Origin: a virus
Length of the DNA: 25,615 nt
Strand: one strand, 5' to 3'
IMG/VR virus record: IMGVR_UViG_3300032307_000175
Span: 1-25,615 of that record
Position 1 is the stretch's first letter; each line of letters begins with the position of its first letter. Shown in pieces: positions 8,526 to 15,792 of this stretch. The translations under genes were made by a program, and so were the position numbers. The notes below the pieces were generated by a model. It ran no database searches and was not told the origin of the DNA. It saw only the letters and a list, made by a program, of their open reading frames with translations.

Positions 8526-9277
8526 TGCTTCGACAAATAAAGTTTGTACAACTCACGCAACCCTTCGAACTGAATTGATTCTTTGAGCAATTGTCTTTTG
8601 CGGTCGCTCATTCGTTCAACCATTCCTTTTGAAAGTTGTTGTTCTTGAAAGACAGTCTTTCGTGCCTTCGCTTTACACAGGTTGTATTCTTCGTCTGTGA
8701 ATGTTTCAAGCGTGATACGCTTACTTTCTTCGAGCCAACGCATCATTGATACACCTCGCAATTCTAAGGTCGTGTATTTGCCTTGTTTAAAACTCTCAAT
8801 ATCTTCTTTCAACATTCTTCTCCAGCTGTCGTCATTCACCGCCATTTCGTTTTCTTTTATTTGTTGTGATTTTTCTTCTATCGCGTTTGCTATTTCACGC
8901 TGAATTTGTAGGTTCGCTTTGTCCCTGTGTGGTTTGTAGTGTGTTAGTACGTCGCCAATGAAAGACACGCTCAACGCTCCGAAGTGTTCACATTTCTTTG
9001 TTAGTTCATTTGCTGCGTTTAGTTCGAACGCAAGATTGAAGTGTTCGAATGTAACCCACCGAAAGTGCTTACCTATGAACTCGTGCAGCATTTGCAACAG
9101 TTGCGCTTCGGGTAACGCTATTCCGTACATCGCGCAAACCTTTGAGCATAACTTAACGAACGTTGGAAGGTCGTAGTCGGCTACGAATGCGCTTTCACGT
9201 TCCGCACGATCAACCCTTTGTGTAATTGTGAGCGTCGTTGTAGATGCGTTGCGCAGCGTCTGAATCGAATTTTCCAT
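8522..9277 (-). CDS. Putative replication-associated protein (251 aa)
   Basis: The gene encodes a helical protein. A conserved-looking core lies at about 35-120 (TFVKLCSKVCAMYGIALPEAQLLQMLHEFIGKHF; FEHFNLAFELNAANEL; FGALSVSFIGDVLTHYKPHR). It is followed by a charged coiled-coil-like half and a C-terminal QFEGLRELYKLYLSKQ. I recall this core from unnamed proteins in replication modules of Bacteroidota phages. A helicase-loader or replisome-adaptor role is possible because it lies next to a protein with a replisome-organiser motif, but no Walker motif is present. The start overlaps the upstream gene by 68 bases. The leader before ATG 9277 (cacaaaaatcaaaaa) matches the A-rich leaders of its neighbours, so I keep that start. 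Confidence 0.6.
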   Translation of the reverse strand: MENSIQTLRNASTTTLTITQRVDRAERESAFVADYDLPTFVKLCSKVCAMYGIALPEAQLLQMLHEFIGKHFRWVTFEHFNLAFELNAANELTKKCEHFGALSVSFIGDVLTHYKPHRDKANLQIQREIANAIEEKSQQIKENEMAVNDDSWRRMLKEDIESFKQGKYTTLELRGVSMMRWLEESKRITLETFTDEEYNLCKAKARKTVFQEQQLSKGMVERMSDRKRQLLKESIQFEGLRELYKLYLSKQ

Positions 9278-9844: not shown

Positions 9845-10378
9845 TTATTTAAGTTTTGATTTTCTTTTCGCTTCGAGTTCTTTTTGTTGCTCTAAGTGTT
9901 CGACAAATTTAGTAAAAAATTTAATAGGTTTAGCATAACCCATTTCATTCATCAATTCACAGATGCGTTCAACCGTTGCGCGGTACGTTCTGTCCATTTC
10001 AATTTGCCATGTCGCTTGTTTGATTCCGTGCATAACGGTAGCGTGGTCTTTGCCGTAGTGTTTGCCTATTGAATCGAATGATTGAAAATAACAAGGGCGA
10101 ATAAGAAAGAAAATAATTTGTCGTGCTGTCACAATCTCGCGTCGTCTCGTTGGAGTGTAAAGCGTTTGCGATTGAAGACCTAACACGCTACAAACAACGT
10201 CTTCTAACGCACTCCAGAACACCTCACGTTCGTTTTCGAGTTCCTGTTGTATCCTTATTTGTTCGGTTGAAAGACGTTCGTATTTCGGCGTAAGCATCAA
10301 CCAAAGCGTTTCGAATCGTTCCATATGTGCAAATGGTATCATGTCCAACATTTGCTGTCTTATTTGTTCGTTAGTCAT
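9845..10378 (-). CDS. DnaA domain IV-like DNA-binding protein
   Basis: The 177-residue protein has a DnaA C-terminal DNA-binding domain at about 74-142. The key pieces are TPTRRREIVTARQIIFFLIR and SIGKHYGKDHATVMHGIKQA, the latter being the DnaA signature helix-turn-helix. The AAA+ ATPase domain of real DnaA is absent; the N-terminal 70 residues are helical with no Walker motif. It should bind DnaA-box-like DNA and may mark the phage origin, recruit host DnaA, or compete with it. It overlaps the upstream gene by eight bases and lies among replication genes. The domain call is strong; the exact role is inference. Confidence 0.88.
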   Translation of the reverse strand: MTNEQIRQQMLDMIPFAHMERFETLWLMLTPKYERLSTEQIRIQQELENEREVFWSALEDVVCSVLGLQSQTLYTPTRRREIVTARQIIFFLIRPCYFQSFDSIGKHYGKDHATVMHGIKQATWQIEMDRTYRATVERICELMNEMGYAKPIKFFTKFVEHLEQQKELEAKRKSKLK

Positions 10379-13771: not shown

Positions 13772-14268
13772 CACTTGAAACATACATAGAAGGAAGATAC
13801 AAACACTTCAAAGAGTTAGCGTATAATATCGCTCGTAAGGAACCATTCTACGAGGACTTGTTGCACGACTCTTTACTTTCTATGTTTGGTTCAAAACATA
13901 TCGAGAACCTAATCGACACAGGCGACTTTGAGTTCTATCTTATTCGCGTTATGTATTTATCGGTCAATAGTCCAACGTCGCCTTTTTACAAACAGACAAT
14001 CGCGTGGAACAGGAACAGACGCGACTTCAAAGAATACGCACACGAAGTGGACAAGACGTGGTTAGGCGCAAGGATGACAAACGAGCAACTGGACATTCTT
14101 ATTAGTCGTCTGAGCGAGTTTGAACGCTTAATCTTTCAAGAGTATATCTTTGAAGGCTTCACCTACCGAGAGCTGTCAAAACAAACAGGCATACCGATGC
14201 CATTCCTTTACCGCACCATTGATAATATCAAACAAAAAATAAGAGCCAATGTTATTCGCAAAAAGTAA
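13768..14268 (+). CDS. Sigma-70-like factor (TTG start)
   Basis: Translation appears to start at TTG 13768, whose last bases form the upstream stop (TTGA); no ATG occurs before residue 39 or so. The 166 residues have a region 2-like part (FKELAYNIARKEPFYEDLLHDSLLSMF). They also have a region 4-like helix-turn-helix (LSEFERLIFQEYIFEGFTYRELSKQTGIPMPFLYRTIDNIKQKIR). That layout matches small ECF-type or phage sigma factors that direct RNA polymerase to new promoters. It may activate late head, tail or lysis genes. Regions 2 and 4 are less well conserved than in host sigma factors, so the call is by pattern. Confidence 0.7.
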   Translation: MTLETYIEGRYKHFKELAYNIARKEPFYEDLLHDSLLSMFGSKHIENLIDTGDFEFYLIRVMYLSVNSPTSPFYKQTIAWNRNRRDFKEYAHEVDKTWLGARMTNEQLDILISRLSEFERLIFQEYIFEGFTYRELSKQTGIPMPFLYRTIDNIKQKIRANVIRKK

Positions 14269-14680
14269 TGAGTACAAAAGACGACTTGAAATTTGTCGCA
14301 CCTGTAAATTCTTCGAAGCATCAACGCAGTCTTGTGGACCATTGATCGTTGGCGACGAAGTAGAAACCGAAGTATTGTTTCGTCGCAAGTCAATTAAGTT
14401 GTGCGGTTGCGTTATGCCTATCAAAGCAAAGTTAGCCTTCGCATCTTGTCCTGCGTCAAAATGGGACGGTGTTCTTTCAATGGAAGAACAAATCGAGTTC
14501 AAACGTTTTCTGCTTGATATGAAAGCGCAAGGACGTTTGGAACAGAAAGATATGCTGAAGTTCTATTCGTTCAAGGATAAGGCTACAGGAGCGTTTAACG
14601 AGCGTTCTACTTGTTCGCCTTGCGTGAAGAAAGACATCAATACTTTTCTTGAATCAATGAAGGATGTGAACGTTGACTAA
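14249..14680 (+). CDS. Cys-rich (zinc-binding) phage protein
   Basis: The 143 residues have C16 and C19 (CRTCKFF), C29, C52 and C54 (KLCGCVMPIKAKLA), C67 (ASCPASKW) and a further CSPC at 122-125. Two zinc sites are likely. The set CxxC...C...LCGC...KxxxxxxxCP...KW is one I know from short proteins in many Bacteroidota phages, of unknown function. It starts inside the end of the sigma-like gene (20-base overlap), suggesting coupled translation, and may act with it in transcription control. The C-terminal half is helical and charged. Confidence 0.65.
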   Translation: MLFAKSNEYKRRLEICRTCKFFEASTQSCGPLIVGDEVETEVLFRRKSIKLCGCVMPIKAKLAFASCPASKWDGVLSMEEQIEFKRFLLDMKAQGRLEQKDMLKFYSFKDKATGAFNERSTCSPCVKKDINTFLESMKDVNVD

Positions 14681-14904
14681 ATGTACAAGTGAAATTCTTG
14701 TAAACTCGATACGTCGCCTCTGGTGTTCTTATTAATGTCGTGCCAACGCATACCACTCAAAAAGAAATCGACTGTCTTATTCGGTGTGAAAACGCGAAAG
14801 TGTCCGTGTTGGAAGTGATGCCAAGTAATAACATTGTTTGTCTTGTAGTTAGTAAGCAATTGAATGAATAATTCTTGCTTTGCTTTCTTGTTTATTTTAC
14901 TCAT
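14677..14904 (-). CDS. Unknown phage protein, lone minus-strand gene (75 aa)
   Basis: The protein has a basic start (SKINKKAKQELFIQLLTNYK), then WHHFQHGHFRVFTPNKTVDFFLSGMRWHDINKNTRGD. The F-x-x-T-P-N-K-x-V-x-F(F) pattern is like small phage proteins whose function is unknown. It overlaps the convergent Cys-rich gene by four bases. Its long upstream region carries a promoter about 450 bases away and a predicted structured RNA, so its expression might be controlled by that leader. Alternatively it may have an unseen promoter of its own. Confidence 0.6.
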   Translation of the reverse strand: MSKINKKAKQELFIQLLTNYKTNNVITWHHFQHGHFRVFTPNKTVDFFLSGMRWHDINKNTRGDVSSLQEFHLYI

Positions 14905-14935
14905 ATATTTTTGATATGGACATAGAAAGGTTTAT

Positions 14936-15351
14936 GGGTGAAAAGACATTAAACTCGCATTTATGCCTTATCATTAATCCTTTTAACTACTACTTTAATA
15001 GTGTTTAGTAGTTACTCATAATTCAGAAGATCCTGATGGGTCACAGGCAATCAGTTGACTATGTCTAGTTTCACCCCCAAGTTCCACCTCTGGATTGCTT
15101 GGATTATTTACAACTGTTGTTACTGGTTAATTGTATAATCTCACAAATGATACTAACGTCATCCATTACCACTACAAATAACCTTCCTTCTAATTATCAC
15201 GTTCATTCACCAACTTCACACTTCGTTGGTATGGGTTGAATGTGGACAAGACCATTTCTCAAATTGCTACAAAAGAAGTTGCCCCGCACACCGTACTCGT
15301 TAACTTAATAACAGCACAATGCTTGGGGCAATGCTTCTATATTAACGAGTA
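14936..15351 (-). ncRNA. Candidate structured RNA with two pseudoknots
   Basis: The 14905-15438 gap has no convincing gene, but a minus-strand transcript would fold strongly. 15342-15351 pairs with 15294-15303 (10 bp). 15325-15338 pairs with 15274-15285 (12 bp, 2-base bulge). The two interleave as a pseudoknot at the 5' end. Further on are a hairpin 15203-15214/15225-15242 with a bulge, GATTAT/ATAATC (15102-15107/15135-15140), and 15044-15054/15090-15101. The last interleaves with 14936-14943/15069-15076 (8 bp) as a second pseudoknot. A 9-bp hairpin lies at 14984-14992/15006-15014. A promoter at 15354-15387 would start the RNA just at the first stem. I do not recognise a known family. Confidence 0.5.
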
Positions 15352-15353
15352 TT

Positions 15354-15387
15354 CAAATATACATCATTCAATCAATAAAACAACAAA
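15354..15387 (-). promoter_or_regulatory. Promoter for the candidate RNA / leader
   Basis: On the minus strand TTTG (15387-15384) and TTG (15383-15381) lie 22 and 19 bases before TATATTTG (15361-15354). That is a full match to the Bacteroidota TTG/TTTG, about 19 nt, TAnnTTTG promoter. Transcription should begin near 15347-15350, at the first base-paired strand of the RNA candidate. No plausible minus-strand gene starts within the next 440 bases. Confidence 0.65.
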
Positions 15388-15403
15388 TAGATTTCAACAA
15401 CTA

Positions 15404-15434
15404 TTGAATGTTAATAATTCATTTTGTATCTTTA
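15404..15434 (+). promoter_or_regulatory. Possible promoter directly before the gene at 15439
   Basis: TTG (15404-15406) and TATCTTTA (15427-15434) are spaced by 20 bases. This is close to the Bacteroidota pattern, with one mismatch in the second box. The second box ends only four bases before ATG 15439, so the transcript would start at or just after the ATG, nearly leaderless. It may be a chance match. Confidence 0.35.
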
Positions 15435-15438
15435 GTGT

Positions 15439-15792
15439 ATGATAATCATTCCAGCTCAACTCGAAGCAGTAACAACACGAAAGGACAAGACACTCAAACT
15501 AACATTTGGAACGAATGAACTTTCACCTTCACAAGCGTCAGAACTATTTACAATAGCAAATCAGTTTGGTTATCTTGCATTCAAAGACGAAGACTTTAAG
15601 CGCGAAGAACTGGATGCAGTAGAAAGTCTCAAGTCTGAGTTAGAAGATACGCTTAAGAAGCCCTCACAACGATTGAGAGGTGTTCTCTTTCGACTATTCG
15701 AACAGGACAACGACGGGTTCAAGACATTCTCGAAATACTACGATAGCAAAATGGAGCAACTTATTAACCATTACAAAAGTAAATTAGGGTAA
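15439..15792 (+). CDS. Conserved phage protein of unknown function (117 aa)
   Basis: The protein opens with IIIPAQLEAVTTRKDKTLKLTFGTNELSPSQASELFTIANQFGYLAFK, then KKPSQRLRGVLFRLFEQDNDGFKTFSKYYDSKMEQLINHYKSKLG. I recognise this as a widespread small phage family with a conserved K-x-P-S-Q-R-L-R-x-V-L and a helical YYxSKMEQLI tail. Its role is unknown; it often lies near replication or packaging genes. Here it opens the rightward block that includes the small terminase. A short inverted repeat (GGTAA/TTACC, 15788-15800) overlaps its stop. Confidence 0.7.
   Translation: MIIIPAQLEAVTTRKDKTLKLTFGTNELSPSQASELFTIANQFGYLAFKDEDFKREELDAVESLKSELEDTLKKPSQRLRGVLFRLFEQDNDGFKTFSKYYDSKMEQLINHYKSKLG

Follow-up and report, generated by a model that had tools for sequence, protein, structure and literature searches.

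Few large structured phage RNAs have been described, and most have no known role. The phi29 packaging RNA is a structured phage RNA encoded near packaging genes, and in the HK022 put leader and the lambda 6S leader a structured RNA stands right at the start of a phage transcript. The Rfam family RF02932 (Betaproteobacteria-1), on which an incomplete literature search returned nothing, comprises stand-alone RNAs of about 350–450 nt from phages and genomic islands. GOLLD and ROOL are long, highly structured, phage-associated non-coding RNAs whose function is unresolved (PMC12286853). The locus described here, in a freshwater Bacteroidota phage, likewise holds a long, structured, phage-associated non-coding RNA, but one that has no Rfam match, is shorter than GOLLD and ROOL and is replaced among related phages by two others, so that three unrelated bodies (types A, B and C) stand behind one common 5′ module. 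It resembles the phi29 packaging RNA only in its position near a terminase-like gene and differs from it in having no Rfam match, in being much longer and in being read in opposite directions in type A and in types B and C. Types B and C could be read as late-operon leaders in the manner of put and 6S, whereas type A is transcribed away from the late genes, and the RNA is universal while the genes downstream of it change. RF02932 itself occupies the slot in phages with type B, and the type A RNA lacks the core of that family (GUCGG..ACGGCAG and ACUGUGGGA). Structured phage RNAs are thus a known kind, but to our knowledge, from a literature search that was incomplete, an exchangeable set of three types with a common 5′ pseudoknot has not been described.

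The window analysed here is a whole IMG/VR virus record, 25,615 bases long. The closest relatives of its large-terminase protein are those of Flavobacterium phage 11b (44%) and of Bacteroides and Cellulophaga phages, and the DNA of the whole window had no match among deposited or isolated phages. A gap of 534 nt (14905–15438) separates a minus-strand open reading frame (ORF) at 14677–14904 from a plus-strand ORF at 15439–15792. No reading frame within it is conserved among relatives; read on the minus strand, it holds the type A RNA (about 14905–15350) and then its promoter. The plus-strand genes upstream of the gap encode a VRR-NUC nuclease, a sigma-factor-like protein and a cysteine-rich protein (14249–14680, plus strand), the last of which is kept in relatives and bounds the RNA slot on that side. 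The other side is bounded by the gene at 15439–15792 (plus strand), which encodes a 117-aa protein conserved at 86–100% identity in 80 viral contigs and precedes a terminase-small-subunit-like gene. A 42% homologue of the 117-aa protein lies beside an ERF recombinase in Cellulophaga phage phi19:1, and a search of host genomes with this protein found no relative. Elsewhere in the window, the 177-aa product of positions 9845–10378 contains a DnaA C-terminal DNA-binding domain (E 2.5e-16), which is unusual in a small phage; the protein is possibly a replication initiator or a DnaA decoy.

The initial annotation proposed that the gap encodes a new structured RNA, transcribed on the minus strand from a Bacteroidota-type promoter. 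The promoter boxes lie where it had placed them (15354–15387, minus strand; TTTG at 15384–15387, TTG at 15381–15383 and TATATTTG at 15354–15361) and are invariant among relatives around a spacer of variable sequence and constant length, and transcription would begin near 15346–15351. The minus strand of the gap has a minimum free energy of −122.5 kcal/mol (z −3.9, or −5.2 when counted from the predicted start). Type A RNAs share about 93% identity across 16 distinct homologues, compared with about 57–61% at third codon positions of the neighbouring genes. We predicted the type A fold from the window alone and then tested it on the remaining homologues, all from one phage group with recombination. 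Across the 16 distinct sequences this minimum-free-energy fold has two-sided changes at 10 pairs and in 35 cells, with 93% of cells paired, whereas slid, misaligned control folds have 0–3 two-sided pairs and 37–43% of cells paired; E-values from our in-house covariation script are rough. Comparison across related phages thus shows, through compensatory changes, that the gap encodes a real structured RNA of about 430 nt that folds as RNA, on the minus strand and with its own predicted promoter, as had been proposed. The further argument that perfect stems in such number are unlikely by chance is a modest one, because dinucleotide shuffling of the gap yields an interleaved pair of at least 10 and at least 7 bp in 3% of cases; the sequence alone is suggestive and the comparative evidence decides.

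Searches against described RNAs fit a new RNA. The gap matched no Rfam family, GOLLD and ROOL included, and whether gathering or relaxed thresholds were applied, the candidates returned for the window were at chance level (for example MIR5291 and Toga_5_CRE, E ~1). ARAGORN and Rfam found neither tRNA nor tmRNA in the gap, and Rfam core models of group I and group II introns did not match, in agreement with the initial reading of the gap as neither tRNA-like nor a group I intron. Among 395 Bacteroidota genomes, the type A RNA gave only matches of 20–41 nt (E 0.002–0.009 per genome), close to chance. A 16-mer scan for type A found no homologue outside this phage group, and the extra contigs it returned do not align to the RNA. 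Isolated phages contained no DNA match to type A, B or C or to the RF02932 consensus.

At the 5′ end of the type A RNA, stem P1 (15342–15351 with 15294–15303, minus strand; 10 bp) interleaves with a bulged 12-bp stem P2 (15325–15338 with 15274–15285, minus strand), as first drawn from the window. This pseudoknot is supported by covariation: P1 changes UA to AU or the reverse at 15345:15300 and 15343:15302 in 5 of the 16 distinct homologues, and the GCCCC/GGGGC core of P2 is invariant in type A. Four hairpins of the body, all on the minus strand, also carry two-sided changes: 15211–15228 at 15228:15211 (CG in 12 sequences, UA in 4); 15144–15165 at 15165:15144 (UG/GU/AU) and 15164:15145 (GU/AU/GC), where the use of G-U pairs points to RNA; 15076–15103 at 15093:15084 (GC in 8, CG in 8), 15094:15083 and 15099:15080; and 15034–15045 at 15045:15034 and 15044:15035 (UA/CG and GC/AU). 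The last two are at odds with a second pseudoknot proposed in the initial annotation, whose stem 15090–15101/15044–15054 is contradicted because 15093:15084, 15094:15083, 15044:15035 and 15045:15034 co-change in favour of the local hairpins. Its other half, an exact 8-bp match of GGGUGAAA (15069–15076) with UUUCACCC (14936–14943) on the minus strand, is invariant in all 16 type A sequences and therefore speaks neither for nor against pairing. A 9-bp hairpin (15006–15014/14984–14992, minus strand) is also invariant and is not a terminator by consensus, since no U-run follows it and a terminator scan was negative. The nine letters UAUGAGUAA occur twice on the minus strand, 115 nt apart, at 15012–15020 and at 14897–14905, where they contain the start codon of the next gene. 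This repeat is kept in 16 of 16 distinct type A sequences, but because it never varies it could be chance, and we did not count it as proof of kinship with RF02932.

That next gene, ORF75 (14677–14904, minus strand), lies 3′ of the RNA in the same orientation, encodes a 75-aa protein and accompanies every type A RNA wherever the contig extends far enough; a scan between the two detected no terminator. Relatives of ORF75 at 56–61% identity follow some type B RNAs on the other strand, and the A-type and B-type proteins are distinct. Searches of Pfam, PHROGs and NCBIfam with ORF75 returned no match. An AlphaFold2 model (pLDDT 87) has an alpha-beta5-alpha arrangement, which gave no confident fold match and hence no clue to function.

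Scans for relatives show that the slot is shared by three RNAs. In addition to the 80 contigs found with the 117-aa protein, ORF75 identified 16, and a scan with the 14249–14680 protein, headed by its most distant relative, gave 80 loci on contigs that partly overlap those of the other scans. About 18 contigs from the 117-aa-protein and ORF75 scans keep the gap sequence itself; the remaining loci carry another non-coding sequence in the same slot, which is type B (about 420–470 nt) or type C (about 350 nt), and these two are encoded on the plus strand, opposite to type A on the minus strand. The 80 loci of the third scan comprise 15 of type A, 23 of type B and 40 of type C, and the other two run into contig ends; these counts include some contigs from the same samples. 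Exactly one RNA type is present in each of the 78 related phages with at least 500 nt beyond the 14249–14680 homologue, between homologues of 14249–14680 and 15439–15792, and among these informative loci none lacks an RNA and none has two types. The bodies of the three types are unrelated, and only the promoter box and the 5′ pseudoknot are common to all. Mean identity within a type is 93% (A), 91% (B) and 85% (C), against 57–64% at third codon positions of the cysteine-rich and sigma-like genes. Type B folds with z −2.8 to −4.4 on the sense strand compared with −0.8 to −2.1 on the other, and type C folds slightly better than shuffles (z −1 to −2.9). In one related contig (L028) the nuclease, sigma-like and 14249 genes are present twice with the second set inverted, either an inverted duplication or an assembly chimaera. 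Another has an Rfam tRNA match (39 bits) 3′ of the slot (L052:4706–4800), and the window itself has no tRNA.

RNA type changes 27 times on the tree of the neighbouring genes, compared with a mean of 31.6 (range 25–36) when labels are shuffled, which indicates that types are exchanged almost freely and nearly independently of phage ancestry. This comparison shows that types A, B and C have been swapped between phages and extends the initial annotation: as judged from these relatives, the window's RNA belongs to a set of three interchangeable types, all with a common 5′ pseudoknot module. Presence of an RNA in 78 of 78 informative phages, together with three unrelated bodies and their swapping, suggests an essential or strongly favoured function under diversifying selection, and the swapping makes this function testable by exchange. 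What lies 3′ of the RNA varies and can be ORF75 (all type A loci and some of type B), a DNA-methyltransferase-like frame, other ORFs or nothing; in this phage group, that position seems to serve as a site for variable accessory genes. One example of such a frame lies behind a type B RNA (L020:1–807), where the resemblance to a DNA methyltransferase was judged by eye.

In all three types a TAT(A/C/T)TTTG box is followed directly by an H-type pseudoknot, which occupies the first 60–80 nt after the TATATTTG-like box and combines a P1 of 8–10 bp with a C-rich/G-rich P2. For types B and C we scored the 5′ domain in 26 distinct sequences against a pseudoknotted model made up of P1, P2 and an inner helix, P2b. 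This domain has 98.7% of cells paired, 8 two-sided pairs and 40 two-sided cells compared with 11.9 in shuffles, and at most one two-sided pair is left when the partner is slid by 1–3 columns. The counterpart of P1 has two-sided changes at 4 of 8 pairs and is 99.5% paired, and P2 alternates between CCCCC/GGGGG and both CCCUC/GAGGG and CCCCU/AGGGG. When changes are placed on trees inferred only from the RNA bodies, partner columns change together on one branch in 24 of 30 events (80%) in type B and 42 of 103 (41%) in type C, against 10% and 16% for non-partner columns; co-change counts are inflated because the 5′ domain recombines, and these control rates measure the share that recombination contributes.

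One strand of this module has two possible partners. In type A, GUUA at 15309–15312 can pair with UAAC at 15299–15302 (minus strand) in an inner hairpin that competes with P1 for its 3′ strand, and the pairs 15311:15300 and 15309:15302 alternate between UA and AU in the same five sequences that carry the P1 change, so that three strands co-vary. In types B and C the 3′ strand of P1 likewise pairs either with the 5′ strand (columns 14:48) or within a small apical hairpin (48:55), and columns 14, 48 and 55 change together on 3 branches in type B and 9 in type C. Co-variation of P1 with the inner hairpin across three strands suggests a conformational switch, and the fact that two unrelated sequence families keep two mutually exclusive pairings of one strand suggests, on our reading of the alignments, a conformational choice. 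A fixed pseudoknot with folding constraints or intermediates under selection is a possible alternative to a regulated switch.

The type B body ties this locus to a known family. It matches RF02932 at 32 bits (E 2e-4 in a search of a 495-nt stretch), below the gathering score of 49.4, and keeps the conserved letters GUCGG..ACGGCAG, AUAAG and ACUGUGGGA. Outside this phage group, scanning with a pattern for RF02932-like RNAs yielded about 37 real loci in bacteria and 58 viral contigs. We built a covariance model, R1, from 29 outside sequences with none from this phage group, and used it to score the family core, the hairpin GUCGG..ACGGCAG followed by the ACUGUGGGA junction. R1 detects all seven type B loci tried (E 4e-13 to 5e-19), and on this score type B is a diverged member of RF02932. 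With filters off, R1 finds nothing in type C and no trace in type A (best E 1.4 with negative bits). Although named for Betaproteobacteria, the family is widespread in phages, beside integrases and in genomic islands. With neighbours identified by eye, bacterial copies have no constant neighbouring gene and are often found next to a tyrosine or serine recombinase or within islands that carry restriction and transposition genes, and copies in other phages lie among replication and recombination genes. Some phage members, such as L372, also carry a 5′ pseudoknot, but only 6 of 64 upstream regions have one at p ≤ 0.05 where 3 are expected, so that it marks a subset of RF02932 relatives at most and was rejected as a general feature. 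In one viral relative (L371) the likeness to type B, judged by eye, extends well past the core; this 75-kb contig has a possible 5′ pseudoknot at and upstream of 8717–8806, with a first stem of 9 bp (GACCACUCC/GGAGUGGUC; p 0.02 by shuffling).

The reading that we favour, and consider probable though well short of settled, is that this phage RNA of about 430 nt, with its own predicted minus-strand promoter and an H-type 5′ pseudoknot, acts in trans as a swappable module, being one of three exchanged types of which B belongs with RF02932. We infer that it acts as its own module because an RNA is present in the slot at every informative locus, whereas the following gene differs or is missing, and because the family of type B stands alone in bacteria. 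In such a module the pseudoknot would seal the 5′ end of the RNA, possibly toggling between P1 and the rival inner hairpin, with the alternative pairing rather than the pseudoknot alone as the regulated step. The body would serve as an exchangeable effector with a binding partner in the host or the phage. That unrelated bodies are freely exchanged behind one 5′ module fits, as a conjecture, an effector directed at a changing target such as a host or defence component. The main rival, which we hold to be possible but clearly the less likely of the two, is a structured 5′ untranslated region acting in cis on ORF75 in type A and, in types B and C, on the late operon or a different cargo, in the manner of a riboswitch, an attenuator or a put-like antiterminator, with P1 and the inner hairpin as its switch. 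Every type A RNA precedes ORF75 with no intervening terminator, the RNA and the following gene are always co-directional, and mutually exclusive pairings with three-strand co-variation would suit a leader. Yet types B and C can be followed by no gene, by ORF75, by a methyltransferase-like gene or by others, the bacterial relatives of RF02932 share no constant gene downstream, and type A points away from the late genes.

The recurrence of ORF75 behind all type A and some type B RNAs, in both orientations and with distinct A-type and B-type proteins, could also indicate a two-component unit, for example an RNA with a small RNA-binding or toxin-like protein; we regard this as improbable, since the majority of type B and C loci lack ORF75 behind the RNA, and ORF75 has no family or fold match. 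Still less probable is a DNA element whose inverted repeats serve a replication origin, a packaging site or bidirectional regulation. Location between divergent genes just before a terminase-small-subunit-like gene, strong conservation and an orientation that differs between types would all accord with such an element, but G-U pairs occur among the compensatory changes, the sense strand folds more stably (clearly so in type B), the stems lie directly behind a conserved promoter and type B matches an RNA family. Chance structure within a conserved non-RNA region, for which the interleaved 10/7-bp pairs found in shuffles leave a little room, is very hard to reconcile with co-variation in all three types and with the slide controls.

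Kinship with RF02932 also links the locus to that family's unusual matched variable repeats. In RF02932-like RNAs, the 7–9 nt after an invariant GGCUCC are the same as the 7–9 nt after an invariant CACC, usually 60–100 nt downstream, while the segment itself differs between loci (including L313, L333, L334, L365, L369, L377 and L393). Matches average 5.9 nt within a locus (20 of 31 at 6 nt or more) compared with 1.8 nt between loci (1.1% at 6 nt or more), and the segment is guide-, seed- or att-like. Type B RNAs, for example L012 and L019, have a repeat of the same kind, GGAGUAAUUA, which occurs twice, 96 nt apart; one position changes in both copies together (GG in 15, AA in 11), so that the copies stay identical. 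A bolder proposal, which we consider doubtful, is that types A, B and C are interchangeable alleles of one class, a phage branch of an RF02932-like family of programmable guide- or seed-like mobile RNAs with a 5′ pseudoknot switch, and that type A, which also has a 9-nt repeat, is a highly diverged form. Paraburkholderia and Caballeronia genomes contain several dispersed RF02932-like copies with their promoter region (L316–L318, L336, L340, L345, L346, L355 and L360), some of them truncated. Such dispersed and truncated copies suggest a mobile RNA gene or an integration site inside the RNA, and two of them, L317 and L340, break at the same point, GGTGGCGAAGTTA.
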